A DNA stretch of 64,000 bases, from the NCBI GenBank assembly GCA_019459485.1, contig JAIBEZ010000032.1, forward strand, positions 62,001 through 126,000, read 5' to 3'. The translations under genes and the position numbers were made by a program. Under the pieces are notes generated by a model. That model saw nothing but the letters and a program-made list of their open reading frames with translations, ran no database searches and was not told the DNA's origin. This stretch comes from Prolixibacteraceae bacterium (GTDB taxonomy: Bacteria; Bacteroidota; Bacteroidia; Bacteroidales; Prolixibacteraceae). Below, piece after piece: positions 43,488 through 60,667 of the stretch; the stretch's first letter is position 1; every line of letters starts with the position of its first letter.

Positions 43488-45065
43488 TTAATTCATATCC
43501 GGGATTGTGAAAATAAACTGACTTCCTTTCCCTAATTCACTTTTTACTTCAATTGTACCATTGTGTTTTTCAATAAAATCTTTACAAAGGATCAATCCTA
43601 ACCCACTGCCTTTTTCATTTGCAGTACCAGGAATTGAAACTTCTTTTTCGAGACTGAAAAGTTTATTTAGAGTCGATTCATTCATTCCGGTTCCCGAATC
43701 CGAAACGATTACTTTTACCGAATTATTCAGGCGTTCAGCATTAATAGAAATTATTCCACCCTGAAGCGAATATTTAATCGCATTGCTTATAAGATTCTGC
43801 AATACTGTATTCAGCATATTTGTATCAGCAAAAATTTCCAGGTCATCCGATACCAAGACATTAAGTGTAATCCCTTTGAGGTTTAATCCTGATTTGAAAT
43901 TACTGGTTACGGATTCCAGCAATGCAGATAGTTTTTGCCTGACAGGCTGATATTCAATTCTCCCTCTTTGTGAATTTGCCCAAACCAACAGATTTTCAAG
44001 CAGATTTAAAGTTGTGCCCGTATTTTCTGCTATCAACCTGATGTAATCTTTCCTTTCAGTATCATTGAAAGAATCATACTGAACATACAAAAGATCCAGA
44101 AATCCAAGAATGCTGTTGAAAGGGCTGCGTAAATCATGGGCAATAATCGAGAAAAATTTGTCTTTGGTTGCAATAAGCTCATTTAGTTTAAGTTGGTTAT
44201 CGTGCAATATCTGATCTGCTTTTTTTCTTTGCGTAATATCGTTAACGATTAGCTGAAAGACTGTCGATCCTTTGTAAATTGCCTGAATAGTTGTGATTTC
44301 TGCATCAAATACAGAACCGTCAAGCCGGATACACTTTTCTTCAAATGTGTCCATTAATTCTCCTTTGGAGATCAAATTCATTTTCTTCCGGAAATCATTT
44401 TTCGAATTCGGATGAATAAACTGAATAACTGATTTTCCCAGTAATTCTTCTGTAGTAGTTGCACCAAAGATTTTAACTCCTGCTGGGTTGATAAAAATGA
44501 TTTTATTATTTTGATAAATGGCAATTCCGGTTGGAATTGAATCTATCAGTACTTTGTATTGTTCCTCGCGATGCCTGAATTGATCTTCGGTTAGTTTATA
44601 CCTTGTAATATCCTGTATTACACCGTAAAATCTAATCGGATTTCCAAGTTTATCATAGTCGGTATTGCAAATTTCATTGATCCATTTAATTCGGCCATCT
44701 TTCATTTTCAACCGATAGCTGATCTCGATTGGTTTTTTAGTTTCCGGCAGTTCTTTCTGAACAGCATCCCTTAATTCGCGATCGTCAGGATGCACCACAT
44801 CAAGAAAAGTGAAATAATTTGCGCCTGATTTTCTTGAATCAACCTCTAAAAGATCAAAAACTCCGTCAGACCAAAGCAGTTGGTTGTACTCGGGATCGAG
44901 GAACCAACGCGACATGTGTGCATTTAGCTGGGCATTTTTCAGAATTCGTAAATGAATTTCTTCATCACGCGGGTCTGCGTAGATAATTTCGAAAGGTTCC
45001 TGATTTTCTTCCGTCCCAAAAATTGGTTCTGTTAATTTTGAGGTTTCCTGTTTAGTCTTTTTCAT
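43488..45065 (-). CDS. PAS-domain sensor histidine kinase
   Basis: 525 aa, soluble. Two or three PAS units: about residues 40-155 (PAS fold with PAC end YGVIQDITRYK) and 165-285 (PAC end LIVNDITQRKK). HisKA with His310 in FSIIAHDLRSPFNS, and HATPase motifs NLISNAIKYS, SDSGTGM and EKGSGLGLILCK. First gene of the leftward three-gene signalling locus; a dispersed repeat with 11-bp-phased motifs lies 66-195 bp upstream. Confidence 0.92.
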   Translation of the reverse strand: MKKTKQETSKLTEPIFGTEENQEPFEIIYADPRDEEIHLRILKNAQLNAHMSRWFLDPEYNQLLWSDGVFDLLEVDSRKSGANYFTFLDVVHPDDRELRDAVQKELPETKKPIEISYRLKMKDGRIKWINEICNTDYDKLGNPIRFYGVIQDITRYKLTEDQFRHREEQYKVLIDSIPTGIAIYQNNKIIFINPAGVKIFGATTTEELLGKSVIQFIHPNSKNDFRKKMNLISKGELMDTFEEKCIRLDGSVFDAEITTIQAIYKGSTVFQLIVNDITQRKKADQILHDNQLKLNELIATKDKFFSIIAHDLRSPFNSILGFLDLLYVQYDSFNDTERKDYIRLIAENTGTTLNLLENLLVWANSQRGRIEYQPVRQKLSALLESVTSNFKSGLNLKGITLNVLVSDDLEIFADTNMLNTVLQNLISNAIKYSLQGGIISINAERLNNSVKVIVSDSGTGMNESTLNKLFSLEKEVSIPGTANEKGSGLGLILCKDFIEKHNGTIEVKSELGKGSQFIFTIPDMN

Positions 45066-45131
45066 CTGTATATGGTGTTATATGGCTCTGTTAAATTGTG
45101 AAAAAAGTATAGAGATAAAATTCAAATAGAT

Positions 45132-45259
45132 GTCCGTAATATAAAAGTCATTTAATTGTCATTTGGTAGTCATTAAGTTGCCAGGAAATTACAACAGAGA
45201 CAATAAATGGCTACAATTGACTGATGCAAAATGTCAAATAGGTATGTAAACGGTCAATC
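45132..45259 (-). repeat. Dispersed ~130-bp repeat, copy 2 (MITE-like)
   Basis: Inverted relative to the copy at 12273-12414. GTCATT at 45147, 45158 and 45169 are exactly 11 bp apart, the mirror of the AATGAC series in copy 1. A 13-bp block of copy 1 is missing here. It lies 66 bp upstream of the PAS-kinase start, in the orientation of that gene. Confidence 0.7.
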
Positions 45260-45318
45260 AAAAAATTAAAGTACAATTATCCCCAAACTTCAAAAGTAAT
45301 TTGAAATAGATGGAACGT

Positions 45319-45335
45319 CAATACGTAATTTCCGA
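45319..45335 (-). promoter_or_regulatory. Possible operator, copy 1 (TCGGAAATTACGTATTG)
   Basis: Matches 46852-46868 at 16 of 17 positions on the same strand. Both are upstream of leftward genes (kinase locus; lipoprotein). No factor can be named. Confidence 0.3.
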
Positions 45336-45598
45336 AACGATTATCTTTTATTATTGAATGCAGAAATTTAGTTTGAAAGGATTTAGAACCATAAATGGAT
45401 GGACGAAATTATGCCCAATTTTGTAATAATTTGATTTTATGGAAAATTGCAGCCAGTTAAATGAACCTGGAGTATGGCTTTGTTTTTTTTTGAAAATGTT
45501 GTGGTGCAAGTTCGTATGAATAGAAAATAGAAATTAATTGTCTGGTTTGTGATGAAAAAAGATAATAATCTGCCAAAATTTTCCGAAAATAATTATAT

Positions 45599-45634
45599 AA
45601 AACAAGGATAAGAAATTACTCTTATCCTTGTTTT
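45599..45634 (-). terminator. Terminator of the duplicated-domain lipoprotein gene
   Basis: Stem AAAACAAGGATAAG / CTTATCCTTGTTTT with an 8-nt loop. Confidence 0.88.
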
Positions 45635-45692
45635 GTGTATTACATGAAATATTTTTAATACGAAATTATTAAATGTACACTAAAACGTAGAA

Positions 45693-46688
45693 TTAAAAAT
45701 TGTAGTAACTATACCACCCCCAGCGGCTTGAATTAAGCGGTGCTGATTGAAATGAAACAAAGTTCGGCAGGGGCATAGCAGGAATTGGAATAACAAAGCT
45801 ATGAGTTGGAGTTACTTCAGAATTTTTATATGGAAATAACTTATAATCAGGACATCCTCCCGTGTACTGGCCTAATTCTACAAGTTCTTCCATCGTTCCG
45901 ACAAATAAATGTGTGGTTTGCAGTGTTAACCCTTCTTTAGGAGTAACTAGTACGTTGATGTTGATGCCATTATCACTTATATTGACTTTTCCTGCTCCCC
46001 CTGTCGAAACTGGAAACTCCCAATTTTGGAGCATATATTCCATATTTTTTCCATTTTCAAAAATATTGACTCCTAACCAAGGACCTATCCATCCTTTATC
46101 ATTGAAATAATAAATCCCTTCAGTTGCAGCCCATTTATTAGATTCAAATGTTACTTTAACAGTTATCAATAATGGGTAAGTACATTTTGCAAATGCGGTT
46201 TCTTCTTGTATTGTTCCGTCTTCATTAACTTTCTTAACTACAGCATGAGCAACCACCATATAACCACCTTCTGGAGCGGGAATTGCTAATGTTATAGGAT
46301 CTAAACTATGTGTAGTACTGTTAAGATCAACTGCAGAATAAGGAAATTTGCCAATCTGTATGGCATTCTTGTTCATGCAAGTTTTTTGAAATTCATCCAA
46401 AGTGCCAACATAGAAATGAACTTCAGATAAGATCCACCCACCAGTAGTTACAAATTCCACCAGAAATTGATTTCCATCATGAGAATAAACAACCTTTCCA
46501 ACATCTATAGTTTGCCCGGCAATAAGGTCACATACCATATCGCCAGCTTGTGGAATTGTTGCACTTTTAAGTGTTAAGTCAGATTCAGAAATGTCTGTTG
46601 TTACCTCCTTGCTACACGAACTGATAAAAATGCCAAAAAAAAGAGCAATTATCCATCCTGATTGTTTTAAACTCAATTTTGTTTTCAT
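45693..46688 (-). CDS. Lipoprotein with internally duplicated domain, unknown function
   Basis: 331 aa. Lipobox ISSC (Cys25). Two related units can be seen: residues about 75-150 (WILSEVHFYVGTLDEF, IGKFPYSAVDLNSTTHSLD, IPAPEGGYMVVAHAVV) and about 240-325 (LTLQTTHLFVGTMEEL, YKLFPYKNSEVTPTHSFV, IPAMPLPNFVSFQSA). The H(F/L)(Y/F)VGT, FPY and THS motifs recur in surface lipoproteins of Bacteroidota, but I cannot name a family with a known role. Monocistronic with its own terminator. Confidence 0.75.
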   Translation of the reverse strand: MKTKLSLKQSGWIIALFFGIFISSCSKEVTTDISESDLTLKSATIPQAGDMVCDLIAGQTIDVGKVVYSHDGNQFLVEFVTTGGWILSEVHFYVGTLDEFQKTCMNKNAIQIGKFPYSAVDLNSTTHSLDPITLAIPAPEGGYMVVAHAVVKKVNEDGTIQEETAFAKCTYPLLITVKVTFESNKWAATEGIYYFNDKGWIGPWLGVNIFENGKNMEYMLQNWEFPVSTGGAGKVNISDNGININVLVTPKEGLTLQTTHLFVGTMEELVELGQYTGGCPDYKLFPYKNSEVTPTHSFVIPIPAMPLPNFVSFQSAPLNSSRWGWYSYYNF

Positions 46689-46851
46689 AGTAGTAAATTT
46701 AAAATTTTAAAAAAAAGATAATTCTAAATAAATGTGAATGATGAACTCAATTTTTACTTTTTTTCCATAAGATACAGCTATATTTATGCCGTTTGTATAT
46801 AAGCTCAGACATCAATTATCTAATAAAATTAGTCTGAAAACCCTTAAAAGA

Positions 46852-46868
46852 CAATACGTATTTTCCGA
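46852..46868 (-). promoter_or_regulatory. Possible operator, copy 2 (TCGGAAAATACGTATTG)
   Basis: Second copy of the motif at 45319. It is 164 bp upstream of the lipoprotein start and just past the asnB stop. Confidence 0.3.
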
Positions 46869-46882
46869 CATCTACCTCTTTT

Positions 46883-48856
46883 TTATTTTTCAATAACTCT
46901 ATAATTCATTAATCGATCAGGTTGAGCAATTATCGGTTCCTGAATAAACATTTTATAGAGTAATTGTGTCGAAAGAATTCCAACCAAAGCCATTTGGTCA
47001 ATTTCTGATGATGTTTCCTGCCGTTCTATTTTTGCCAGCAATGTCTCTACTTTTTCAGGATTAAAAATTCCGTATGACCTTATGGACGTATCCGAAAGAA
47101 TGTCGAAAATATAAGCAGGAGTATTTTTCGAATAAAGGCTGCCTGAAATAGGAGCCCGATAGGCTTGTTTCGGTCTTTGAGTTATTGAGGATGGGATTCT
47201 TCCTGCACTCAGCCTTTTTAGAATGAATTTTTCATTCAATGAATTCAGTTTTTGATTGTCAGGCAGATTGTTGCAGAATTCGATTACCCGATAATCTAAA
47301 AAGGGATAGCGACCCTCAACGGAATTGCCCATTGCCATCCGATCGCCTTGCGAGGATAACAAATATCCTGACATGAATATGGTAGCTTCGAGGTATTGAG
47401 ATTTTGAAAGATCACTCCAGTTTGCATAATCTTTCGGAAGGGTTTTGTAAACCTCATTGATTGACCTGCTTCCATTTTGAGACGATAGAATATCATCTGA
47501 AAAGAATGATTTTAAGCGGCCTGTATTGTTCCAGCGAAGCAGGTGCGAATATGCAGGATCTTCTGTTTCTTTTAGTTTGTATCCAAAAAACATTTTCAGA
47601 GCCAGATCGGGCGATTCCTTCATCATCGGAATATAGGGATAAAGTTTTGCCAATAACCTGGGACGTGCTTTCGAATTCGGTTCGTTGGCCCAAAATCTTC
47701 TGATTTTTGCTTCTTTGAAGATATTGTACCCTGCTAAAAACTCATCGGCACCTTCACCAGTAATAACCACCTTTATGTTGCTTTCCCTAACCTTTTTTGA
47801 CAACAAAAACATTGGGGTGGGAGAGGTTCTAAGAATCGGAAATTCCGTATGCCAGATTGTTTCAGCAAAATTCTCAGCCAATTCTTCCGCCGTGCATGAA
47901 AATGCAGTGTGGTTTGTGTTGAAAAACTTCGCAGCTTCGATTTGATAGGCTGTTTCGTCATATACCTTGTCTGTAAATCCGATTGAAAATGTATTTAATA
48001 CCTGCGGATTTATGGCATTGATGTAGGAAGTTGTTACACTTGAATCAAGTCCGCCGCTCAAATATGCACCAACCGGAACATCAGCCCTTAAACGAATTTT
48101 CACTGCATCGTGAAGTAAATTATCCAACTCTTCAATTGAGTCAGTCAAATTGCGGTTGTGGTTTTCTTTTTCTGAAGTGAAATTCATGCTCCAGTACTTT
48201 TTTGTTTGGATACCATTTGAATTCACGTGCATGTAATGTCCGGGCTGTAATTCAAAGATATTTTTGAAAGGAGTATTTGGAGTCAATGTAGTCCAGTAGG
48301 TGAATATTTGTGAAAGACTATCCTTGGCCAAAACTCTTTCAATCTGGTCAAGTGAAAAGAGTCCCTTAATTTCGGAACAAAAGGCAAAAGCTTCCTTTTG
48401 AGCCCAATAAAAAAGCGGACGAATTCCTACGCGGTCGCGGGCCAGAAACAGCTCTTTTTTGTTTCTATCCCAAATGCAAAAAGCAAACTGACCGTTAAAC
48501 TGTGTTAAACAATCATGACCATAGAGCGCGTACATTTGAACTACGACTTCGGTGTCACAGTTGGTTTTAAACTGAATGCCTTTATTGATCAAATCAGCTC
48601 TTAATTCTTTGTAATTGAAAATCTCGCCATTGTACACAATCCAATACCTTCCGGTTGTATCCGACATGGGTTGCTGGCCTGATGACAGATCAATGATACT
48701 AAGGCGTACGCTGCCGATTCCGATATTGCTGTCGAGAAGAACGCCGCTTTCATCCGGTCCCCGATGATTGATCAGGGAGAGCATTTTTTTTACGTTTTGT
48801 TCTGTCGAAGGTTCCTGGGCTGAATGATAATTGTATATTCCGGCGATTCCGCACAT
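46883..48856 (-). CDS. asnB: Asparagine synthetase B-type amidotransferase
   Basis: 657 aa. N-terminal glutaminase with the nucleophile Cys2 (MCGIAGIYNYHS), SDTTGRYWIVYNGEIFNYKELR and NGQFAFCIWD. C-terminal synthetase domain with the PP-loop SGGLDSSVTTSY and GEGADEFLAGY. Forms an amide from a carboxylate with glutamine and ATP. Members of this length are common in surface-polysaccharide and acyl-carrier clusters, where the acceptor is often not aspartate. Here it closes a cluster with an ACP, a ligase, two methyltransferases and an NadE-like enzyme, so a tailoring role is likely; free asparagine synthesis is the alternative. Confidence 0.88.
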   Translation of the reverse strand: MCGIAGIYNYHSAQEPSTEQNVKKMLSLINHRGPDESGVLLDSNIGIGSVRLSIIDLSSGQQPMSDTTGRYWIVYNGEIFNYKELRADLINKGIQFKTNCDTEVVVQMYALYGHDCLTQFNGQFAFCIWDRNKKELFLARDRVGIRPLFYWAQKEAFAFCSEIKGLFSLDQIERVLAKDSLSQIFTYWTTLTPNTPFKNIFELQPGHYMHVNSNGIQTKKYWSMNFTSEKENHNRNLTDSIEELDNLLHDAVKIRLRADVPVGAYLSGGLDSSVTTSYINAINPQVLNTFSIGFTDKVYDETAYQIEAAKFFNTNHTAFSCTAEELAENFAETIWHTEFPILRTSPTPMFLLSKKVRESNIKVVITGEGADEFLAGYNIFKEAKIRRFWANEPNSKARPRLLAKLYPYIPMMKESPDLALKMFFGYKLKETEDPAYSHLLRWNNTGRLKSFFSDDILSSQNGSRSINEVYKTLPKDYANWSDLSKSQYLEATIFMSGYLLSSQGDRMAMGNSVEGRYPFLDYRVIEFCNNLPDNQKLNSLNEKFILKRLSAGRIPSSITQRPKQAYRAPISGSLYSKNTPAYIFDILSDTSIRSYGIFNPEKVETLLAKIERQETSSEIDQMALVGILSTQLLYKMFIQEPIIAQPDRLMNYRVIEK

Positions 48857-48948
48857 AAAAATTAAGTTAATTTATTATTGATAGATATTTTCCGGGTTCA
48901 ATTTCAGTCCTTTTAATCTGTTGATGGTTTTTCCGGTTGATGTTTAAA

Positions 48949-49863
48949 TCAATGATTTCCTTTGTTGACCATTCTTGCTTTTAAAACGCGTATGTTACCA
49001 TGTTTGTCAAAAATTTCAGTTATTTCTCCATAATTTGCATTTGAGTTAAGCCTTTTCGACAGAAATTCTCCCTGCCCCAAGCCACATTCAAAAATCAGGT
49101 ATCCATTTTTACGCAGGTAATCCGGTGAGATTGAAATGAGTTTATTGAAAATTGATAATCCTAATGGTCCTGCATCAAAAGCTTTAGAAGGTTCGTGATC
49201 GGCAATTTCCCTTGCCATTTGTTTCACTTTTACTGATGAAATGTATGGCGGTGCACTCACAATGATGTCTGTTTTATTCTTCAGATTTAGCATTTCAAAT
49301 GGATCAAACATATCGGAATTGTAAAAAGTGACCAGTTTTTCCAGACCAAAATGCTTCGCATTAATCTTTGCCGCATCTATCGCAGGCTGGTAGATATCTG
49401 ACCCTAAAACAACTGTATTTTTGCAGTAATGGGCGATGGCCAGTGCAATTGTTCCGATGCCAGTGCATAAATCAATCACTGTAACTTTTTCTTCGCGTTG
49501 ATAATTAGTCAATAACAAATCAATGGTTGTTCCGGCCAGAAGTTCTGTTTCCTTGCGTGGAATGTACAGTCCTTTGTTCAAAATGTAATCCAATCCCATG
49601 AAATTCTGCCTTTCGGTGAGGTGAGCCAAAGGCACTCCCATAAGCCTGTCTTTTATTAATTCATCAAGTATTTCAAAATGGGCAGACTCCAGAAAAGGTA
49701 GGTCAATTTGATTTGCGGATATTGCAGAAACCCGGTTTCCTGCTGCGGTATGCCATAAGGCGCTCAGGGTATTGTGCGCGTTTTCTTCACTTTTGTCGGT
49801 AAGTACGGTTAACTGTTTTTCAATTCTTTCCAGGATATTCCCAAATACAACTTTTTGTGGCAT
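48949..49863 (-). CDS. PrmC/HemK-like methyltransferase 1, altered catalytic motif
   Basis: 304 aa. Two-part layout of PrmC: N-terminal helical domain (HLTERQNFMGLDY) and a Rossmann SAM domain (VIDLCTGIGTIALAIA, residues 129-144). The NPPY motif that holds the target amide in N5-glutamine methyltransferases reads SAPPYIS (Ala204), so the substrate Asn is lost. It shares the unusual opening and order with the second copy at 50662, so the two are paralogues. With the key residue changed, glutamine methylation of release factors is doubtful; another small-molecule or carrier-bound substrate, or loss of activity, is possible. Confidence 0.82.
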   Translation of the reverse strand: MPQKVVFGNILERIEKQLTVLTDKSEENAHNTLSALWHTAAGNRVSAISANQIDLPFLESAHFEILDELIKDRLMGVPLAHLTERQNFMGLDYILNKGLYIPRKETELLAGTTIDLLLTNYQREEKVTVIDLCTGIGTIALAIAHYCKNTVVLGSDIYQPAIDAAKINAKHFGLEKLVTFYNSDMFDPFEMLNLKNKTDIIVSAPPYISSVKVKQMAREIADHEPSKAFDAGPLGLSIFNKLISISPDYLRKNGYLIFECGLGQGEFLSKRLNSNANYGEITEIFDKHGNIRVLKARMVNKGNH

Positions 49864-49893
49864 GCGCTGCTTCCTTATTTTATTGTGTTTTTT

Positions 49894-50304
49894 TTATACT
49901 ACTATTTGTGATTCATCTATTTGAACGGTCGTTTTTGAATAGGTAAGTTTTTGACTGATTTTCCCATCAATAAAATATAAAATATCAGCACCACGCCTTA
50001 TTTCTTGTTTACCTATAAATGGTTTTAATGCTGATGGCCATTCAAGCCGCCACGTAAAAAGCATCTTTTGTTCATCTTCATCAAAAAAGAGATCTTCCTG
50101 AATAAATTTAAAATTGCCATGATTTAGGAACCAGGGAGTCCATGATCTCCTCAATGTGTTTTTCCCTTCAATCTTTGTATCTGTCCAGTTTTCGAAAACA
50201 ATGTCTTCATGCATTAATTTCATGACTTCATCCAAATCATGTTCATTCCATGCCATGAGCCAATCATTAAATAAAACAAGTATTTCGCTCTTTGAAAGAT
50301 TCAT
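49894..50304 (-). CDS. NTF2/SnoaL-like protein
   Basis: 136 aa from the ATG at 50304 (MNLSKSEILV); a GTG ten codons earlier is less likely. Cone-shaped NTF2-like fold: FNDWLMAWNEHDLDEVMKLM, HEDIVFENWTDTKIEGKNTL, LFTWRLEWPS and RRGADILYFIDGKISQKLTY. Family members include SnoaL-type cyclases, isomerases and dehydratases as well as non-catalytic proteins. Its place between two methyltransferases, near a ligase and a carrier protein, points to a small-molecule step. Confidence 0.82.
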   Translation of the reverse strand: MNLSKSEILVLFNDWLMAWNEHDLDEVMKLMHEDIVFENWTDTKIEGKNTLRRSWTPWFLNHGNFKFIQEDLFFDEDEQKMLFTWRLEWPSALKPFIGKQEIRRGADILYFIDGKISQKLTYSKTTVQIDESQIVV

Positions 50305-50661
50305 TTTGTCATTTTTTTTAAATTGTATAGTCACTGAAAATACTATTAACGCTAAAATTCCGGCTCAACAACGGATCGTATGGGTTTTATCTTTTATTCA
50401 CAAATTTAACGTCTTCATATTATTTTGAATAAGGTAATAAGGTTGTGTTTGTATGGTACTATTGTACTAAGGTTAAATTTTCAAAATAAGGTTTTAAATA
50501 TTTATGTGTTTACACATAGGGCTCGTTACTCCGAAAAGAACATTATTCCTGGTTTATAAGCCTCAGCAGAATATTTTCACCTAACCAACCTTAACCTTAT
50601 TAATCAACAATTAATTTGAGGCAAACGTTACAGGCATACTTTTAATCCTTTTGCAACTGAT
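50305..50661. other. 357-bp gap within the tailoring cluster
   Basis: No gene. Repeated AAGGTT units (AATAAGGTAATAAGGTTG about 50429-50446, TAAGGTTAAA, AATAAGGTTT) on the left and the complement CCTTAACCTTATTAATC near 50590, so the region could form a long-range hairpin. Confidence 0.5.
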
Positions 50662-51561
50662 TTAAGTACTTGTTTTTGAAGCTGCTATCACCCTAATGTG
50701 GCCGTCATTGTCAGTAAATGATTTTATTTGCTGATACTGATTTGATTTTTCGCACAACTGAATTACAAAAGGACCCTGACCAAGACCGACCTCAAAAATG
50801 AGCCAGCCATTTCCGGATAAAAACCGGGGCGAATCCTGAATGAGTTTTTGAATTACTTTCAGTCCAATCATTCCTCCATCAAAAGCCATTGACGGTTCGT
50901 TGACCGCTATTTCTGAATTCATTTTTAAAACTTTCGACGATGAGATATAAGGAGGATTGCAAACAATCAGGTCGATTTCACCCCAAAATTCGTCGGATTC
51001 AAATTGTGAGAATAAATCACTTTGGACAACTTCTACTCTTTTATTTAGGTTTAAAAATGAAATATTGTCCTTTGTCAACGCTACAGCGTCCGGCGAAAGA
51101 TCTGAAGAATAAACGATTGTGTCGGGTTGCAGGAATGCCAGGGCTAAACCAAGATTTCCGGAACCACAGCAGACATCCATCAAATTGAGGATAGTTTTCT
51201 TTTCGGCTATTTTTTTACAAAGTTCAAGTGCCGATTGTCCTAAAATTTCTGTTTCTTTTCTTGGAATCAGCGCCCTTTTGTCGCACCTAAATTCGATCCC
51301 CATAAAGTTTTGACGACCTGTCAGGTGAGCCAGCGGAGTGCCGCTGATCCGCTTTTCAGCCAGTTGGAGCAAAGTGATTTTTTGCTGTTCCGAAAGTTGA
51401 GGAAGCGGAAGTTGTGCTGCTTTTGTAGCCGATAATGAAATTCCAAAGGCCTTGTTCCAGAGTGCTTTTATCGTTGAATCGACCGTTTCTTCCGGTTTAT
51501 CTTCCAGAATAGAAAGGTTGCGCTCAAAATCCTGCCTTATTTTTTGGTACAATTCTTCCAT
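50662..51561 (-). CDS. PrmC/HemK-like methyltransferase 2
   Basis: 299 aa. Same layout as the gene at 48949: HLTGRQNFMGIEFRCDKRAL, IPRKETEILGQ, SAM site LMDVCCGSGNLGLALA (127-142) and an intact NPPYIS (Asn202), followed by SSSKVLKMNSEIAVNEPS and AFDGGMIGLKVIQKLI. By family it methylates a glutamine side-chain amide, classically GGQ of release factors. Its place in a carrier-protein cluster with a diverged twin makes a dedicated role more likely than the housekeeping PrmC. It starts 1 bp downstream of the ligase stop. Confidence 0.85.
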   Translation of the reverse strand: MEELYQKIRQDFERNLSILEDKPEETVDSTIKALWNKAFGISLSATKAAQLPLPQLSEQQKITLLQLAEKRISGTPLAHLTGRQNFMGIEFRCDKRALIPRKETEILGQSALELCKKIAEKKTILNLMDVCCGSGNLGLALAFLQPDTIVYSSDLSPDAVALTKDNISFLNLNKRVEVVQSDLFSQFESDEFWGEIDLIVCNPPYISSSKVLKMNSEIAVNEPSMAFDGGMIGLKVIQKLIQDSPRFLSGNGWLIFEVGLGQGPFVIQLCEKSNQYQQIKSFTDNDGHIRVIAASKTST

Positions 51562-51562
51562 C

Positions 51563-53119
51563 CTATTTATTCAGAAGCTTTTTCAATTCTGCCTTGTCAA
51601 TTTTTCCATTGCTGCTTTTGGGCATTTCAGTCACAAAGATGATTCTTTGTGGTACCATAAACGGTTCCAGATTGGCCATACATTCCCGCTGGATTTCCTT
51701 TTCAATAAATGGCTCCTGATTATAGGTGGTTGCAAAAGCGATTATTGATTCACCTAAAATGACATCTGGAATACCCAGTACCGCCACTTCTTTGATTCCT
51801 TCAATTTTATAGATTGTATTTTCAACTTCAACCGGACTTACCTTTTCACCGCGCGTTTTGATGATGTCATCATTTCTTCCCAGAAAATAAAGGAATCCGT
51901 CTTCATCCATTTTAAACAAATCGTGCGCACACAGGATTTTTTCGCTCGGAATAAGCCCGGGTTTGAGCATCTTAGCACTCAATTCTTCGTTGTTCCAATA
52001 ACCAGCCATCACGTGAGGTCCGCGTACATGCAGTGTGCCGGGTTCTCCCGGGTCAACCGGAATCCCTTCCGAAGAAAGTAGAAAGACCTCTGTTCCCGGT
52101 ATTGCTTTACCAACTGAATCTTTTTTTAAGTCGATTAACTCCGGTTCGAGGTAACAAACCCTTTTACACTCGGTTAAACCATACATTTTGAAAATCAATG
52201 CATTTGGGAATATTTTCTGCAAATCGCCAATGAATTCAGCCGGAAGTGCTGCGGCTGTATTTGTAATTTTTTTTACACAATCAAATGTGATTCCCGTTTT
52301 TTTGTGCATCGTGATCATCATTGCATAAATGGACGGGACACCTGGGAAAACGGTCGGTTTTTGCAGTTCAATCTGGCGGAATATGGCAGGCGGAAAATTG
52401 AACGATTGCTCAATGATGAGTGTCCCGCCAATTGTTACGGACATAATCAATTGATAAAGACCATAATCGAAAGCCAATGGCAAAACCAGCATAATCCGTT
52501 CTTCATCGGTCAAACGCAAATATTCAATGAGACTCCACGAAGTAAAAACCATCGATTGATGGGTCATCATCACCCCTTTGGGAAAGCCGGTGCTTCCTGA
52601 AGTATAAATTAAAGCCGCTAAATCATTGGGAATAGTCTTGGGTAGTTGGGCTTCATCGTTATTGGTTTGAATAATATCTTCAAAATTTTTAAATGAATTG
52701 TCTGAAGTCGTTAATTCAGAAATGATTACCTGCATCACTTCGCTGAGACCGACCAATGAAGAAGAAAGTTCGTTTATAAGCTGATTTTCTGAAATAACGA
52801 TTTTCGCCCCGCAATCATTTAGAATGTAATTTAATTTATTTGCCTTTGTTTGTGGGTTGATCACCAAAAAAACTCCGCCCGCAAGCGTGATTCCATAAAT
52901 TGAAACGATGCATTGCCATGAGTTATTCATGTATATCGCAATCCGGTCACCTTTTCTGATTCCTTTGTTTACAAGATGAAACGCCAGGCTTTCCGAACAT
53001 TCTTTCAATTTTTGATAGGAATACGTTTCGCCTTTGTATATGGCAGCTGTTTTGTCAGGATGCCTGGCGGCAGAAAACAAGAGTGCTTCGCCAAGTATAC
53101 GTTGTGGTCTCGAAATCAT
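51563..53119 (-). CDS. AMP-forming acyl-CoA/acyl-ACP ligase
   Basis: 518 aa, ANL superfamily. AMP-binding P-loop YTSGSTGFPKG (172-182), MYGLTE motif (A5), YFLGRNDDIIKTRGEKVSP hinge (A8) and the C-terminal SSNGKIDKAELKK with the catalytic Lys (A10). Activates a carboxylic acid as acyl-AMP and loads it to a thiol, here most likely the carrier protein encoded next to it. The substrate cannot be read from sequence. Closely linked to the methyltransferase 2 gene (1-bp gap). Confidence 0.9.
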   Translation of the reverse strand: MISRPQRILGEALLFSAARHPDKTAAIYKGETYSYQKLKECSESLAFHLVNKGIRKGDRIAIYMNNSWQCIVSIYGITLAGGVFLVINPQTKANKLNYILNDCGAKIVISENQLINELSSSLVGLSEVMQVIISELTTSDNSFKNFEDIIQTNNDEAQLPKTIPNDLAALIYTSGSTGFPKGVMMTHQSMVFTSWSLIEYLRLTDEERIMLVLPLAFDYGLYQLIMSVTIGGTLIIEQSFNFPPAIFRQIELQKPTVFPGVPSIYAMMITMHKKTGITFDCVKKITNTAAALPAEFIGDLQKIFPNALIFKMYGLTECKRVCYLEPELIDLKKDSVGKAIPGTEVFLLSSEGIPVDPGEPGTLHVRGPHVMAGYWNNEELSAKMLKPGLIPSEKILCAHDLFKMDEDGFLYFLGRNDDIIKTRGEKVSPVEVENTIYKIEGIKEVAVLGIPDVILGESIIAFATTYNQEPFIEKEIQRECMANLEPFMVPQRIIFVTEMPKSSNGKIDKAELKKLLNK

Positions 53120-53443
53120 AGAAATGAGTTTATTTATGAAAGTCTGAGTCCACTACAAAAAGTCGATTAGTTATCCCGAAGGGATAAAATTTGAATAACC
53201 ACCGGTAAAACCGGTGGAAAAAATGAAATAAAAATGGCAACCCTGAAAGGGTTGAACTTTTACTGTGTTTATATTCAACCCCTTCAGGGTTGCTTGTTCG
53301 TCTTTCATTCTTCCGTCCCGATTTACTATCGGGACGGTTATTCATATTCAGTCCTTTCAGGACTATTTTTTACTTTCTGACTTTTCGGAGAGGATTCGAG
53401 TCTATTTCTTATTTGCGTAACTTCTTTTTTCAATGCCTATTTG
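53120..53443. repeat. Stacked palindromes between the ligase and ACP genes
   Basis: 324-bp gap inside the operon with at least four hairpins in a row: ATCCCGAAGGGAT (about 53174-53186), ACCACCGGTAAAACCGGTGG (about 53199-53218), an AACCCTGAAAGGGTT / AACCCCTTCAGGGTT pair (about 53237-53298) and CCGTCCCGAT...ATCGGGACGG (53313-53337). A further CCTTTCAGG follows. No gene. Such stacks are common between genes in Bacteroidota. Confidence 0.75.
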
Positions 53444-53701
53444 CTAACCAACGGTGCCAACCTTAAGTTTTCGTGATATAAAATTTGTAATGGCATCAAC
53501 GGATTCAAAATTTGATTCTACCAACTCATTGTCGGCAACTTCAACTGAGAATTCATCTTCAATGAACCCGATGATTGATATAAAGCCCATGGAATCCATG
53601 ATTCCCTCAGCAAAAATGAGGGTGTCGTTGTTGACCTGATCGCCTGATACATAAGAAGTCCGAAGTATGAACTCTTTAATTTTTTCCTGAATGTGCTGCA
53701 T
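53444..53701 (-). CDS. Acyl carrier protein (stand-alone)
   Basis: 85 aa, acidic. Phosphopantetheine site Ser37 in GIMDSMGF (canonical DSL changed to DSM), with helix 2 after it (GFISIIGFIEDEFSVEV) and DNELVESNFESVDAITNFI. It is not the fatty-acid ACP and is probably loaded by the ligase encoded downstream. It follows the NadE-like gene by 34 bp. Confidence 0.9.
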   Translation of the reverse strand: MQHIQEKIKEFILRTSYVSGDQVNNDTLIFAEGIMDSMGFISIIGFIEDEFSVEVADNELVESNFESVDAITNFISRKLKVGTVG

Positions 53702-53735
53702 GATTTATTGCTATTTATTGAATTTTTAATTTATA

Positions 53736-54725
53736 TTATTTGTATGTAATAGGCGCCATTCGTAAATATTCTGTTGTTTTTTTCTTTCTGCTCAGGTTAT
53801 TGTAGATATGCATGATTTCATCGGATGTCTTGTTTAGCACTTTACCAACCTCTTCTGGATCGATTTCATTCTCTAACCCATACCATATTAAATCCATCTC
53901 GTGGTAGGGCATCTGGAAGAAAAATTCTTCCTGAGTTTGCTCAGCCGTATAAGTGTCAGAGGTTGGTGTCCTCTTTATAATATCTTCCGGAATCCCGAGG
54001 TATTCAGCTAATTGATAGACCTGTGATTTGTAAAGATGCGCGATCGGCATAATGTCCGCTCCTCCATCGCCGTTTTTTACAAAAAAACCTTGCTGAACTT
54101 CATGTTTGTTTGGTGTTCCAATCATGGCATAATGCAACCTTTCTGCATGATAATAAAGCATTGACATACGGGAGCGTTGTTTGAAATTGGAAGCTGCAAC
54201 TATCTGTAAATATTCTTTTATGGGTAGTTTTTTACTTTTTTCTATTCCCTCATTGCTGATAATCGTAATTGAAAATACCGGAGGCAAGAATTGGTTTAAA
54301 CCACTTTGGTTAATGCCGATTTTCATTTTGTAATCAGTAGGGTTGTATTCCGGAAAAACCGCTGCAACAGCTTCATCCCTTCTTTTATAACAGCCAAATC
54401 CTTCTAGCGCACCCGTAATGTCTTCTTCGATGGTTTGGACTTTAAATTTTTGCGCCAATTCAAGGGCCTTTTTTTTGCTGTCGGGGCTTGAATCTTTTTC
54501 GGGCAGCAGAATGCCGATTACATTTTCCGGGCCAATTGCCTTTACTGTCAATCCCAATGTCACTGAAGAATCAATGCCGCCGCTGATGCCAATAATCGCT
54601 CCTTTTCGTTTCAACACGCTGTAAATATCATCTTTGATCTTACCGGAGATTTGGTTTGCGATGTCTTCAATGTTTTCAAATTGAAGTATGTCTTTTGAAA
54701 ATGGTTTTATATGTTTTGAATCCAT
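53736..54725 (-). CDS. NadE-like, ammonia-dependent amidating synthetase
   Basis: 329 aa. N-type ATP pyrophosphatase: PP-loop SGGIDSS (48-54), IGTPNKHEVQQGFFVKNGDG, DIMPIAHLYKSQVYQLAEYLGIPE and RTPTSDTYTAEQTQ are the NAD synthetase blocks. It lacks the glutaminase domain, so ammonia must come from solution or a partner. It may be the cell's NAD synthetase, but it is the first gene of a cluster with an ACP, a ligase, methyltransferases and AsnB, so amidation of an adenylated acyl group is a plausible alternative. Confidence 0.85.
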   Translation of the reverse strand: MDSKHIKPFSKDILQFENIEDIANQISGKIKDDIYSVLKRKGAIIGISGGIDSSVTLGLTVKAIGPENVIGILLPEKDSSPDSKKKALELAQKFKVQTIEEDITGALEGFGCYKRRDEAVAAVFPEYNPTDYKMKIGINQSGLNQFLPPVFSITIISNEGIEKSKKLPIKEYLQIVAASNFKQRSRMSMLYYHAERLHYAMIGTPNKHEVQQGFFVKNGDGGADIMPIAHLYKSQVYQLAEYLGIPEDIIKRTPTSDTYTAEQTQEEFFFQMPYHEMDLIWYGLENEIDPEEVGKVLNKTSDEIMHIYNNLSRKKKTTEYLRMAPITYK

Positions 54726-55202
54726 TTTATTGTTTCTGGTAATTGATTTTCACTTTAATGGTCATCGTATTTTATAAATATAATGTCTGGCTTGGAAACG
54801 TAATTGTATTTACAAAGAAAGGATTTATTTCGACAAAGTTCCTCCTTACCCCAGGCGATTAATATGATTCACCTCCGGTGTAAAAACACAAGAGTTAGAC
54901 AAATTGCGGATTTTTCATTGTCTCTTTCAACGGTTTCCTGTTTGATCCATAGTCAGGTCGAAAATTCGGATCGCTTCTCCTGAAATTATACCCCGGGATA
55001 GATTATTTTGACCTTCCATACCGGGGAAAATTTGTGTTCAATTTGTGTATATAGTGTACAGGCAAAGCGAAGGCACTGCACAGGCATGACGGTCAGATTT
55101 TAATTCCCTATCAGCCTTAGCTACCGTGTACCCGCATCTATTACGGGTTATTAACATCCAATGATATTCCGTTCCCACGGAACTCTTTAACGATCAATCC
55201 AT

Positions 55203-55260
55203 GCCCCCGGATTAAAATCCGGGGCTACATAATGGATCATCCCTTTGGGATTAACATGTA
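55203..55260. repeat. CCCCGGATTAAAATCCGGGG element, copy 1
   Basis: CCCCGGATTAAAATCCGGGG palindrome followed by CTAC-TAATG-ATCATCCCTT and a GGGATTAA end. About nine in ten bases match 62886-62943. Confidence 0.75.
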
Positions 55261-55296
55261 GAAGCCGTAGGCTTGATTCATTATGTAAGAATGAAC

Positions 55297-55321
55297 TTCG
55301 ACTGAGCTCACGCCGAAGTCT
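55297..55321. repeat. 25-bp repeat TTCGACTGAGCT-n-ACGCCGAAGTCT
   Basis: Copies at 2213-2237, 55297-55321 and 58977-59001 agree at all but one position. Core TTCGACT / AGTCT halves are partly self-complementary; in this copy the reverse complement AGTCGAA continues just after it. Confidence 0.75.
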
Positions 55322-55429
55322 CAGTCGAACGTATTTATTCCGTCCAAAGCAATAATCACCGTTACCCCTTTGAGAGTAATAGGCTCGGGACATTTGAATT
55401 TGTGGGTACACGGTAGAAGCTGCAGGCAG

Positions 55430-55525
55430 GTGTCCGAAATATGGATTTTGGGCTGAAAAAGGCTTTTGCTTGGACGATTTTCGTTTGTTCATTCTTACCA
55501 AGAGCGACACTCCCTGGATCACATG
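55430..55525. repeat. CGTCCG-type interspersed element, copy a
   Basis: TGTCCGAAAT...TTGGACGATTTTCGTTTGTT, with ATTCTTACCAAG and GACACTCCC following. It aligns across about 95 bp with 62060-62150. Confidence 0.65.
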
Positions 55526-56625
55526 ACATTCTTGTAGGGAAAGCAACGCAAGTTAACGATAAATTTTTTTTACCTTACTTTTTTGTCGATACCTTAGTAA
55601 CTGGGTAATAACCCCAAAATCCCTACCTTATCTACCTTATAACTATCCTGATAATACTTTCCCGAGGAATTGGGACAGACCAGGAAGTGGTCGTATTCTT
55701 GAACAAAACATATTCTTTTATGGTGTTCAGGCTAGTTCAAAATGTATTTACATACATTGTCAATGCCTGACTTTGAAACAGAAAATGCTGCTGCTCCCGA
55801 TCCATCGGGATTGCCAGTTGAAGCTGCCCTTTACAAGTTTATTTTCATTGATGGACTTTTCTGAACTATCGGAAATAATTGCCGCCAATTCTACATCTGA
55901 AAGAGTTGATGCATTTGACACAAGAAATAAGGTAAATAAGGTTAAGGTTTTGGGGCTGATCTATGTTACTAAGGTTTTTTACAAAAAAAATATCCATGAA
56001 AAGGTAATAAGGTTGGTCTTTCACCCGCATCCTAATTCTACTGAGGTGGCCTTGATAAATAAGGTGTAAAGAATCTGAATATTCCAATACCCATTGCTAA
56101 GGAGGTTACTTCGGACAAAATTCAAATACCCACAGCATCCGACTTAGAGTCCTAATTTATTTGATTTTTTAACAAATGTTTGTTCGCAGTCGGAATTCAG
56201 ATAAAATTTTCTTCTTTGAGACTAAAATTACATCTCATTTTTAATGAGGGATTGTGAAAAATTAAAGTTTCAAAAATTGAGCGTTGTAATTCTTAGCACT
56301 ATGATATTCAGATTGTTGGTTGATGTTGGAGTAGAACTAACACTATTGACGATGTTTAATCTAAGCGGTTGACAAAGGTATAAATTCTGATTTTAATTAT
56401 AACAATAAAAATGGCAAAAAAACAGCCAGTTTTAAACAAGTTACTGTTGTATTATATGTTGATAACTATTGTGTCAGAGCATGTTATATGGAATTTTTTA
56501 TTTATAGATTTGTAAACCAACAAGCATAAAACAGTTTCAATATTATTGTTTGCATTATGGAAACACATTTAAGGAGTTCTAAATCCACGCCTTCGCAGTA
56601 TTGTTGCAGAGGGATATTGGTATTA

Positions 56626-56650
56626 TTTTTTAATTTTTTAATTTTTTAAT
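56626..56650 (+). repeat. (TTTTTTAAT)x3 leader repeat
   Basis: Three 9-bp units TTTTTTAAT/ATTTTTTAA run directly up to the ATG of the next gene. They replace any Shine-Dalgarno sequence and could change in number by slippage. Confidence 0.6.
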
Positions 56651-56651
56651 T

Positions 56652-57218
56652 ATGGCTAAAACAAAAAGTCTTTTGACCGCAGGCCTTAGAGGCACTGTTG
56701 GCGGAACTTTGGTGTTCCGCAGGTTGAATGGAGAAACCGTTGTTTCGGCTGCTCCGGAAATGAGTTCAAAAGAACCAAGTGACAAACAAAAAGAACAACG
56801 TGAGCGGTTTAGGCACGCTTCGTTGTATGCGCAACGTGTTGCAGTTGATCCGGATTTATTTGTGGAGTATCGCGCTGCAGCAGTTAAAAAGGGTTTTTCG
56901 AATGTGAGAAGCCTTATCATTGCTGATTATTTCCGGATTCCGGAATTTTTGAGTACCAAAGTAAATACCAAGCCAGAAGGATCGGTATTGGAAACTATTG
57001 TTGTCGATTACATGCGTGTAAAGTCAGTGACAGTTTCGCTCAGAGATCCAGATGGCTTGGTATTTGAAACCGGAAATGGTGACTTGGGCACCGACAGACA
57101 AACCTGGACTTATCTTGTTCAGGATTCGGCTAAATTGGTTGCTGGCGTAAGTTTTGAGATTACTGCAACTGATTTACCAGGAAACGAGAGCACCATAAGT
57201 TTTGATTATCAGGCTTAG
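56652..57218 (+). CDS. DUF6266-like small protein of unknown function
   Basis: 188 aa, no signal peptide. N-terminal half: GLRGTVGGTLVFRRLNGETV, then Q-x2-QRERFRHASLYAQRV and a following helical region (NVRSLIIADYF). This resembles the DUF6266-like Bacteroidota family that opens with a Gly-rich GxxGxVG-type motif and a T/S-x-x-Q-x-x-x-R-x-F block; the match is from memory and not certain. C-terminal half is beta-rich (VKSVTVSLRDPDGLVFETGNG). It is the only rightward gene in the polysaccharide locus and is flanked by repeat-rich DNA. Confidence 0.6.
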   Translation: MAKTKSLLTAGLRGTVGGTLVFRRLNGETVVSAAPEMSSKEPSDKQKEQRERFRHASLYAQRVAVDPDLFVEYRAAAVKKGFSNVRSLIIADYFRIPEFLSTKVNTKPEGSVLETIVVDYMRVKSVTVSLRDPDGLVFETGNGDLGTDRQTWTYLVQDSAKLVAGVSFEITATDLPGNESTISFDYQA

Positions 57219-57463
57219 GTGATTGATTTCCAGATCGGAGAGGGGGGTAGCACTAACTACTTCCCTCTTTTTTTGGATGTCGTCAGCGCTTCAATGAACA
57301 TTTCCTGACCGAAACTAAGTAATCGGTTCAATGTAAGCAAATTTTAGAGAGACTATTTTCTGTTATTGATCATTTTTGTGGAGCGGGTGGGTAACTTAAC
57401 CTTGATCAGAAAAAAAATGGTTCTAATACGAATGGTGTGGATAGAAGTAGAAATCTTATGATA

Positions 57464-57477
57464 TTCCGTCCGAAAGC
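57464..57477. repeat. CGTCCG-type element, partial copy e
   Basis: TTCCGTCCGAAAGC only, ending at the DUF4910 stop; the GCGGACGG half is absent. Confidence 0.45.
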
Positions 57478-57478
57478 T

Positions 57479-58750
57479 TTATTTTTCTTCTCTTAGTAGA
57501 CCGGCCTTCAATAATTTGTTGGTGGCCTGGGTTAATATTTCAAAATCAATTCCTGATTTCTTGGCAATATCAAGCAAGGAATGATTTCCATCCGATAAAT
57601 TTAAGATCCACAATAATGCCATTTGGTAATCTCTTTGTTGAATTTGACCTCCAATTGAGTTGTATAAGCCACGTTTGCCAAGTTGAGGCTCTCCTTTAGG
57701 GTTTGTATTTATCCATTTTTTATTGCCTTCGATTACGGAAATAACTTTAAACAACAATGCAAGTGATTCGTTTAAGTTGTCGGAGTTGATAAAATCCAAG
57801 TTGTCTGCCGATGTATGATATTCAGGAAACTCTCCAAATGGTGTTCGAGTTAAACAGCCCACCGGAAGATTAAACCCAGGTGAACAAAACTGCCTTTCGT
57901 CATACCCATAGGGAGAAAAATCAAGTATTTTTGCACTTTGTTCATCTTTAAGCAAATATTCAACTATGAGGTCAATATCGGTATTTCCCCGACGTGACCT
58001 TTTGTAATGAAATGGAGATGAGTCTCCTAATAGAGAAAGCACTAATCCGTGCTTTATATTTTTAACCTTATCCTCATTTCTGCTTAACCAGGTAATTGAT
58101 CCAATGGTTCCGGGAATAAACAAGAATCTATAGGTATAGTGCGGCTCCAACTTTTGCAGTTCAGATGCCAAATTTACTGCCAGTACGATACCTGATAAAT
58201 TATCGTTGCACAACGAAGGGTGACAAATGTGGCAACTGAAAAGTACCTCCTCCTTCGTTTTGCCAGGTATCAGGTACTCGCCATAAGTCAGAGAGCCTGG
58301 CTTTAAGTCAGAATCAATAAGAACCTGATAGTCATTTTCATCTAAGTTTTCAAATTGTTTGTGAGAAATACAGAATCCCCACTGCCTGTTATAATAGGAG
58401 GTACGGTAGGGCACCAAATCCGGATAATCAGGTAAAGTATATAAATGCTCTTTTAATTCCTTTAAGTTGATCCGCTTTTGAACAGGCTCACTGTAATTAA
58501 GGATGTGCAAATTTAGGTTTTTGAAATCTACAATTTTTTCACCGTTCGATTTTTTTATCCAGGCTTCCCGTATGTTCCATTCATCAGGTATTTCCCAATC
58601 AAGTACTTTTGTTCCAGACGGTACTTCGACAATATCAATGGCAATAAATTCCTTTAAGACTGAAAGTGTTTTGCGCACACCATCTCCTGTAATACTGCGA
58701 CATATAGGGAAAAGGCGGACGGCTAATTGGTACATTTCTTCTCCTTGCAT
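57479..58750 (-). CDS. DUF4910 aminopeptidase-like protein
   Basis: 423 aa. N-terminal part (FPICRSITGDGVRKTLSVLKEF; VPSGTKVLDWEIPDEWNIREA) and a Zn-peptidase-like core with HICHPSLCNDNLSGI as putative metal-binding segment, then FLFIPGTIGSITWLSRNED. The last ~70 residues form a small winged-helix-like domain (GQIQQRDYQMALLWILNLSDG). The family is related to M28-type aminopeptidases; no member's role in sugar clusters is known to me. It follows the PIG-L gene and probably belongs to the same locus. Confidence 0.82.
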   Translation of the reverse strand: MQGEEMYQLAVRLFPICRSITGDGVRKTLSVLKEFIAIDIVEVPSGTKVLDWEIPDEWNIREAWIKKSNGEKIVDFKNLNLHILNYSEPVQKRINLKELKEHLYTLPDYPDLVPYRTSYYNRQWGFCISHKQFENLDENDYQVLIDSDLKPGSLTYGEYLIPGKTKEEVLFSCHICHPSLCNDNLSGIVLAVNLASELQKLEPHYTYRFLFIPGTIGSITWLSRNEDKVKNIKHGLVLSLLGDSSPFHYKRSRRGNTDIDLIVEYLLKDEQSAKILDFSPYGYDERQFCSPGFNLPVGCLTRTPFGEFPEYHTSADNLDFINSDNLNESLALLFKVISVIEGNKKWINTNPKGEPQLGKRGLYNSIGGQIQQRDYQMALLWILNLSDGNHSLLDIAKKSGIDFEILTQATNKLLKAGLLREEK

Positions 58751-59163
58751 TTGAAAATGATGGTATTAATTAATTGATTATTAATAAGGTTTAGGTCGGT
58801 GAGGCTTGATATGTTCCCTTATGAAACTACTTTTTTGAAGCCAGATTCTATTCCGTCCGAAAATTGGGTATTGCCCTGATAAAGGCTTTCGCGCGGACGG
58901 TTCTCAATATCGCTTTTATGTCCGTTGCCTAAAGGCAAACGGCAAATGTCTGCGGTCATCAATTTAACCGGCAGCGTTCGACTGAGCTCACGCCGAAGTC
59001 TGAAGCAGACGGCAATTGATATTTGGGTCTACAACCGGATATTCAAAAAACAAAATTAAGGTTTGTTTGAATTAAACCATCTGTTAAACAAGTAATATTT
59101 ACAATTATCTTAAAATACCCACACTATCCTTTATAGAACCAAAAAAATCTATCAAACTGTTTT
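58751..59163. repeat. 413-bp repeat-bearing gap between DUF4910 and PIG-L genes
   Basis: Contains CGTCCG element copy b (58851-58900: TTCCGTCCGAAA ... GCGCGGACGG) and the 25-bp repeat at 58977-59001. A TAATAAGGTTTAGG motif is at about 58781. No gene. Confidence 0.65.
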
Positions 59164-59802
59164 TTAAAGAATAAGTTTTCTGGCATAAAATGCTTCTGCA
59201 AATAATGTGGCCGATTCCATTCCCCTTAATCTTGGCAATGCACTAAACGTTGCATCGTCGAACCAATGTTTTTCGCGTTGAGAAACAAAAGAGTTGAGCA
59301 GGATATGGTTTTTTGCCCTTATAAAATCTTCACTTAGTTCTACAAAAAAGTTTGGTGAGCCTAAATCACCATCGTATTTTGGTATTTCATATTCCAGGAT
59401 CAGTTGGCTTCTCCAGGTATTCCAGGTCAAGTCGCTTATTATCCGATGATCCTGATGCCGATCGTTCCGATAGTGGGTAAAGATTAAATCCGGTGAAATC
59501 TCCTTTTTAATTTCTTCAAAATATTCTTTAATTTCTGAGCCATAAAAAGGTAGAAAACCATCGCGAAATGAGTTGATTATAATTTTTTTGTTTGCCACAT
59601 TGTCTAAGAAACTTTCAGCACTTGTGACGGCCTCCTTTTTTCTGATTTCGTTGGAGGCAAAAACTATCCAGGTAACTTGTTCAATGTTATATTCCTGAAT
59701 TAGTTTTAGTATTGTTCCCCCCAGCCCAATTTCAATATCGTCGCAATGTGCTCCCAAGCAGAGAATCTTTAGCGGAGTACTTTTATCTAAATGAATATTC
59801 AT
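59164..59802 (-). CDS. PIG-L family deacetylase
   Basis: 212 aa. Zinc-site motifs of the LmbE/PIG-L family: AHCDD (18-22) and HYRNDRHQDHRII. Removes N-acetyl groups from amino sugars or related molecules. In this locus a nucleotide sugar or glycan intermediate is the likely substrate. It begins 37 bp after the rfbF stop. Normal length. Confidence 0.9.
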   Translation of the reverse strand: MNIHLDKSTPLKILCLGAHCDDIEIGLGGTILKLIQEYNIEQVTWIVFASNEIRKKEAVTSAESFLDNVANKKIIINSFRDGFLPFYGSEIKEYFEEIKKEISPDLIFTHYRNDRHQDHRIISDLTWNTWRSQLILEYEIPKYDGDLGSPNFFVELSEDFIRAKNHILLNSFVSQREKHWFDDATFSALPRLRGMESATLFAEAFYARKLIL

Positions 59803-59839
59803 TCAAACTAATTAATAAGTTTTTATACCGGATCATCTA

Positions 59840-60634: not shown

Positions 60635-60667
60635 TGTTGTTGTTTTAATGATTGATAAAAGAGCCGA

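Follow-up and report, generated by a model that had tools for sequence, protein, structure and literature searches.

The DNA analysed here (the window, 64,000 nucleotides, positions 62,001 to 126,000 of contig JAIBEZ010000032.1) belongs to the genome of a Prolixibacteraceae bacterium (GCA_019459485.1, completeness 99.88%). Positions 46883-54725 of the window harbor seven genes, all on the minus strand, which in the transcribed order encode a NadE-like synthetase, an acyl carrier protein (ACP), an AMP-forming ligase, a PrmC/HemK-like methyltransferase (MTb), a SnoaL-like protein, a second, diverged PrmC/HemK-like methyltransferase (MTa) and an AsnB-like glutamine amidotransferase. The gaps between them amount, in the same order, to 34, 324, 1, 327, 30 and 92 bases. 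An earlier sequence-only reading had assigned seven leftward genes to these families; each open reading frame (ORF) was found in place and every family was confirmed by Pfam/NCBIfam. Four of the genes (NadE-like, AsnB, ACP and ligase) form a core that recurs across phyla, and the methyltransferases are tied to one type of the ligase.

The NadE-like protein (P0008, 53736..54725) is an ammonia-type PP-loop synthetase that scores 435.5 bits with NF002048 (cut-off 313), keeps the PP-loop SGGIDSS and carries an extra segment of ~60 residues. The next gene encodes the stand-alone ACP (P0007, 53444..53701; PF00550) with its DSM site in the motif GIMDSMGF. The ligase (P0005, 51563..53119), here referred to as type 1, keeps PKSSNGKID and has a VinN-like substrate code (D218, Y219, T288, K319, R320). 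MTb (50662..51561) contains the NPPY motif, which is replaced by APPY in MTa (48949..49863). The SnoaL/NTF2-like gene (49894..50334) has an alternative ATG start at 50304, which may be likelier than the GTG. Both the N-terminal cysteine (MCGIAG) and the PP-loop SGGLDSS are present in AsnB (P0001, 46883..48856). Its best NCBIfam match is TIGR01536 (513 bits), followed by the XrtA-type TIGR03108 (414.1 bits, cut-off 816.9); it also matches TIGR03104 (N-acetylglutaminylglutamine amidotransferase) with 365 bits, under the cut-off.

Conservation of a four-gene core

A close relative of the NadE-like protein is found in 8 of 149 genomes of the order, the present one included. The ligase adjoins the NadE-like gene in all eight and the full four-gene core is present in six; of the incomplete loci, L025 has neither AsnB nor ACP, and no full AsnB is present in L026. 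A profile scan of the genome collection gave at least 79 loci, and all counts on these apply among the matches listed. Conservation of the core was counted in loci that extend 7 kb or more to both sides of the NadE-like gene, the partners being located by tblastn at no more than 7 kb from it. All three partners (AsnB, ligase and ACP) are found inside this distance in 42 of 49 well-covered loci (30 of 34 from the collection, 4 of 5 from the order set and 8 of 10 from the phylum set), L024 and L041 being the same genome (G119) counted twice. The seven exceptions (L057, L084, L087, L109, L026, L136 and L144) lack one to three partners. Six other stretches of the present genome, taken as controls (L018 and L113 overlap), gave no hits to AsnB, ligase or ACP, and the same is true for the locus of a NadE paralogue with 36% identity (L028). 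Clustering of the core exceeds chance, because 42 of 49 loci keep all partners and the control stretches none. By record title, the loci of the collection scan come, among others, from Bacteroidota, Chlorobiota, Ignavibacterium, Chloroflexota, Acidobacteria, cyanobacteria, Caldithrix, Alphaproteobacteria and Microbacterium.

The sequence-only reading had proposed a search for the gene set in other Bacteroidota genomes, and the genes were indeed found together elsewhere. Its treatment of the seven genes as one set does not hold: four genes form the core, the methyltransferase goes with a single ligase type, and the SnoaL-like gene is found less often.

In G747 a ligase-methyltransferase pair faces SnoaL-NadE-AsnB, and in G452 the AsnB-ACP and ligase-methyltransferase pairs share a single short contig. 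Of the 72,556 records in a plasmid collection, 116 contain a match to a Sinorhizobium NadE-like protein. On pSymB of Sinorhizobium meliloti R14 the genes asnB, ACP, adenylate-forming enzyme and nadE are contiguous, the ligase being one annotated gene, and the NadE-like gene of strain 1021 is on pSymB as well. About 10 kb from the R14 core, a PrmC-like methyltransferase stands beside a 373-residue protein annotated as hypothetical (as GNAT in another strain); this protein has no NCBIfam match at 1e-20, and its relative from Sinorhizobium psoraleae has no Pfam match. The pSymB loci with the core and the separate pair are L152 25426-27371 and L150 10458-12001. In the record of S. meliloti Ak57 the ligase is unannotated and its matches are split over two frames. 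A locus titled Aminicenantes (L079) has its ACP flanked by two NadE-like genes, 44% and 55% identical to P0008.

The NadE-like gene is, judging by its genomic company, not the housekeeping NAD synthetase, because a further NAD synthetase above the family cut-off is found in all eight genomes of the order with a cluster-type NadE. The additional enzyme of the present genome, encoded elsewhere, has 547 residues, the size of the glutamine-dependent form; a separate PrmC-like protein of 292 residues is encoded elsewhere too. Thus neither the NadE-like gene nor a PrmC-like gene of the cluster is the only one of its kind in the genome, a possibility that the sequence-only reading had named as fatal to its proposal. 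An AlphaFold2 model of the NadE-like protein (36 sequences) has a predicted local distance difference test score (pLDDT) of 92, and its top structural matches are NAD synthetases (2e18, TM-score 0.84 by target length). The sequence profile matches NAD synthetases in two halves, with ~60 residues more between them than in 2e18. This segment is modelled as helices and strands (residues ~112-166) and is a candidate for binding of a new substrate or of the ACP.

Ligase type, predicted cargo and methyltransferases

Among the solved structures, the best single-domain match of P0005 is VinN, with 260 bits in one stretch; LgrA entries rank above it, but as sums over two domains. The centre piece of P0005 gives 104 bits with VinN and 70 with the next protein. 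According to the available part of a review (PMC11253843), the key substrate residues of VinN are D230 (for the amino group), F231, S299 and K330/R331 of a shortened loop. D230, F231, S299, K330 and R331 align with D218, Y219, T288, K319 and R320 of P0005, that is, with two conservative changes. VinN puts 3-methylaspartate on the stand-alone ACP VinL, after which VinO decarboxylates the ACP-bound residue, and FlvN accepts Asp (both from the accessible portion of another review, PMC11284099). Since the code of P0005 matches that of VinN, the predicted cargo is an amino diacid attached in the manner of a beta-amino acid, which would leave a spare carboxylate for the amidating enzymes.

Two main ligase types are found among the relatives. 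Type 1 has FDYGL and TE.KR, whereas in type 2 the amine-binding Asp is replaced mostly by Cys (in some by Ile or Val) and the second motif reads TEA[TS]AR; type 2 ligases likely take a different acid. Some NadE-like genes of phylum relatives (L142-L145) are paired with ligases of neither type. The L143 ligase reads YGLTEAFRS, and that of L142 has the XrtA ligase model as its best NCBIfam match, under the cut-off.

Among 82 ligases, a methyltransferase lies within the same stretch for 16 of 26 ligases of type 1, 0 of 52 of type 2 and 0 of 4 others. On a ligase tree built by a quick method the type changes twice and the presence of the methyltransferase six times. A search of 22 whole genomes found cluster-type methyltransferases (413-503 bits) only in the four with a type-1 ligase (the present genome, G119, G747 and G452), all other matches reaching no more than 166.5 bits; of the other 18 genomes, 13 have the type-2 motif, 4 another one, and G280 has no ligase match in its stretch. 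The methyltransferase is thus accessory to the core, yet tied to the ligase type. Ten type-1 rows have no methyltransferase in their stretch. Two of them (L041 and L024) represent G119, in which the gene is located away from the core amid glycosyltransferase and epimerase genes, and the stretches of L072, L077, L088 and L093 stop soon past the core.

Both MTa and MTb exceed the HemK-family cut-off. With TIGR03534 (PrmC, cut-off 199.1) MTb scores 204.7 and MTa 192.0, and the solved-structure relatives of MTb are HemK/PrmC proteins. On a tree, 18 cluster methyltransferases split from the PrmC proteins of the present genome and E. coli with support of 100/99, these two rows being the whole outgroup and the PrmC of the present genome a long branch. 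NPPY is retained in 17 of the 18, the exception being MTa, which still has the glycine-rich stretch DLCTGIG. MTa is not the sister of MTb (branch length 1.29); its long, deep branch does not support a recent tandem copy of MTb. Enzymes with NPPY transfer the methyl group to nitrogens of planar amides or of ring amino groups, PrmC itself to a glutamine amide. Because such enzymes methylate amides and the cluster would make amides, the amide nitrogen of the cargo would be the likely target. Relatives of the SnoaL-like protein occur in 3 of 101 loci, each of the three with a methyltransferase.

Surroundings of the cluster

Four families connected with glycans were counted around the 79 loci: Wzc-like proteins of the chain-length/kinase type (17 loci), polysaccharide export (11), Bac_transf sugar transferases (8) and MBOAT (11). 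At least one of them is present in 28 loci. The Pfam assignments come from a single member in each of the Wzc-like, export and Bac_transf families and from three MBOATs of one locus. A lipoprotein-like family with the motif HHSTG stands beside the core in 11 loci, and its distant relative with GHQSVG in 9 (link E 3.8e-4), examples from this group being L069:6861-7724 and L083:6579-7472; the one member scanned has no Pfam match. The model of this member (pLDDT 83) is SGNH/GDSL-like, and its first seven structural matches include acetyl xylan esterase and the peptidoglycan O-acetyltransferase PatB, the matches being weak by query (TM-score 0.40-0.46). The SGNH-fold and MBOAT neighbours recall MBOAT+SGNH acylation systems. 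In the present genome sugar-nucleotide genes are found at about 59000-64000; genes for polysaccharide export and for Wzz follow just past the end of the window.

The gap between the ACP and ligase genes contains clear palindromes of the CAACCC..GGGTTG type (53174-53364), and that between MTb and the SnoaL-like gene just short, weak repeat matches. An ORF at 53130-53345 was taken as non-coding: it lies inside the ACP-ligase repeats and has no Pfam match. Stretches of the AAGGTTAAGG type were read by eye in other gaps (50400-50640 and 55560-56070). A search of 45000-58000 against Rfam gave nothing at the gathering score. A promoter scan gave 24 matches against 29.4 in shuffles, that is, no excess. 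Terminator-like elements numbered 18 against 8.2 in shuffles, the palindromic repeats of the ACP-ligase gap contributing to the excess.

Two neighbours have by-eye lookalikes in the closest relative. A lipoprotein-like protein of 331 residues (45693-46688), downstream of AsnB, resembles one encoded upstream of the cluster there (L031:6670-7662), and neither has a Pfam match. Close to the cluster, a small protein starting MAKTKSLLTAGLRGTVGGTLVFRRLNGETVV (56652-57218) resembles L031:8342-8914; a Pfam scan of the window copy gave no match.

Proposed pathway and its place among known systems

Taken together, the genes suggest a carrier-protein pathway that would make an amidated, here probably N-methylated, amino-acid building block for a glycan, a reading to which we give somewhat less than an even chance. 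In this pathway P0005 would adenylate the beta-carboxylate of aspartate, 3-methylaspartate or a similar amino diacid and load the activated acid onto the stand-alone ACP. From the VinN-like code, the loaded residue is expected to keep its amino group and alpha-carboxylate free. The NadE-like enzyme and AsnB would then amidate a carboxylate, in the simplest case the one at the alpha position of the residue on the ACP, and MTb with its intact NPPY would next methylate the amide nitrogen. MTa, in which the Asn of this motif is lost, may be the partner of MTb or a second, altered methyltransferase. The final step would be transfer of the product, probably onto a cell-surface glycan. A bolder form of the proposal, which we regard as doubtful, is that of a widespread pathway in which paralogues of NAD synthetase and asparagine synthetase amidate an ACP-bound beta-aspartyl residue, while enzymes recruited from the methylation of release-factor glutamine (here the unequal pair MTb with NPPY and MTa with APPY) N-methylate the resulting amide, so that donors of the N-methyl-isoasparagine type arise for surface glycans.

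The idea of carrier-protein tailoring by a set with amidating enzymes comes from the sequence-only reading, and it gains from the conservation of the core, from the ligase residues and from the non-housekeeping nature of the NadE-like and PrmC-like genes, its weak point being the assumed equality of the seven genes. Several observations weigh against the pathway as drawn. The roles of AsnB and the NadE-like enzyme cannot be told apart from their sequences, and the SnoaL-like protein has no place in the steps. A 4.8 kb contig of G452 carries AsnB, ACP, ligase and methyltransferase without a NadE-like gene; G452 is outside the 13 NadE-positive genomes, a set for which it may not have been sampled. 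As 10 of 26 type-1 rows have no methyltransferase, among them the longer stretches L083, L085, L086 and L089, amide methylation would not be obligatory even for type 1. MTb scores above the cut-off of the release-factor methyltransferases and may therefore methylate a protein. As to the acceptor, 51 of the 79 loci are devoid of all four glycan families, many of the stretches being short, and the present genome has no match to MBOAT (PF03062) or Acetyltransf_6, no transferase being identified in it. The transfer to the neighbouring polysaccharide that had been proposed at the outset is unproven, although some relatives have MBOAT or SGNH-fold proteins or stand beside glycan genes.

The alternatives overlap in part, and the probabilities assigned to them need not sum to one. 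It is conceivable, although unlikely, that the cluster yields a free small molecule (an amidated peptide, osmolyte or natural product) that is freed from the ACP and decorates no glycan. Such a product would agree with the resemblance of AsnB to TIGR03104, with the service of VinN-type ligases in natural products (accessible portion of PMC11284099), with the missing MBOAT and Acetyltransf_6 matches and with the Sinorhizobium core, which has a sugar ABC transporter on one side and minCDE on the other and no obvious glycan locus around it; however, no condensing, reductase or thioesterase gene was recognised among the seven by Pfam/NCBIfam, and the 28 loci with export, chain-length, sugar-transferase or MBOAT families, as well as the SGNH-fold proteins of some loci, speak for a glycan. 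We consider it improbable that AsnB, the NadE-like enzyme or both amidate sugar uronic acids or their nucleotide precursors, an acyl group being provided independently by the ligase and ACP. The substrate of NAD synthetase, a dinucleotide with a carboxylate, is not unlike a nucleotide sugar. In addition, a floc-forming exopolysaccharide cluster contains two asparagine synthetase genes (PMC9012009, in the part available). Against this, both enzymes accompany the ligase and the ACP in different phyla, and from the ligase code one would expect a cargo that still has a free carboxylate.

Methylation of a protein glutamine (in the ACP, the ligase, or a ribosomal or release factor) instead of the cargo would fit the score of MTb and its HemK/PrmC structural relatives. 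It does not fit the clade of the cluster methyltransferases, which stands apart from the two PrmC rows used, the housekeeping PrmC-like gene of the present genome, or the dependence of the methyltransferase on ligase type and hence on predicted cargo, and we do not expect it to hold. The database names of the genes could even suggest chance neighbours with housekeeping roles in making NAD and asparagine and in methylating release factors. This is hardly credible given the recurrence of the set across phyla, the separate NAD synthetases in eight of eight genomes and the separate PrmC-type matches in the four methyltransferase-bearing genomes; the further NAD synthetases and PrmC-like genes rule it out in the present genome for the NadE-like gene and the methyltransferases, a rejection that does not extend to AsnB.

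If the carrier-protein pathway is correct, genes named NAD(+) synthase (NF002048), asparagine synthase and PrmC-like methyltransferase would share one pathway, including those on pSymB of S. meliloti, and a methyltransferase of the PrmC amide type would gain a small-molecule role. A decoration by amidated, sometimes N-methylated, amino acids would be predicted, and the association of the methyltransferase with one type of ligase makes the cargo prediction testable.

Among open-licence papers, judged by titles and abstract openings, no description of this gene set was found. Tailoring of amino acids bound to carrier proteins is already known, whereas amidation by a NadE-type enzyme and the tie of a PrmC-derived methyltransferase to the ligase type appear to be undescribed as far as searched. 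One near parallel is the VinN/VinL(/VinO) set of vicenistatin, which has in common with the present cluster a stand-alone ACP and a ligase with aligned key substrate residues. There the ACP-bound residue is modified after loading by decarboxylation (VinO), whereas amidation is proposed here at that stage; NadE-like and AsnB amidotransferases are present instead, and the seven genes include no decarboxylase or polyketide synthase. A decarboxylase of the VinO/TIGR03099 type was rejected as a part of the system: the four TIGR03099 matches of the present genome reach at best 136.5 (cut-off 478.45). The exopolysaccharide set of XrtA/PEP-CTERM (TIGR03098, TIGR03108, TIGR03099) provides the top-scoring NCBIfam model for the ligase and the second-ranking one for AsnB, both matches being under the cut-off (438 of 592.35 bits for TIGR03098 and 414.1 of 816.9 for TIGR03108), and the present cluster has the NadE-like gene in addition. 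Cell-surface aminoacylation by Dlt employs the ligase DltA, the carrier DltC, the MBOAT protein DltB, and DltD. A ligase and a carrier protein are shared with it, and in some relatives there are MBOAT and SGNH-fold proteins too, whereas the present genome has no MBOAT match and the cluster has extra amidating and methylating enzymes. At the level of single enzymes, the NadE-like protein shares the PP-loop, the fold and the GDG/D..P..LYK core with the NH3-dependent NAD synthetase, but has ~60 added residues between the conserved halves and occurs in genomes that all own another NAD synthetase. The cluster methyltransferases belong to the same sequence family as the PrmC/HemK N5-glutamine methyltransferases and, with the exception of MTa, share their NPPY motif, but they form a separate clade and follow the ligase type, while the housekeeping PrmC-like gene lies elsewhere.

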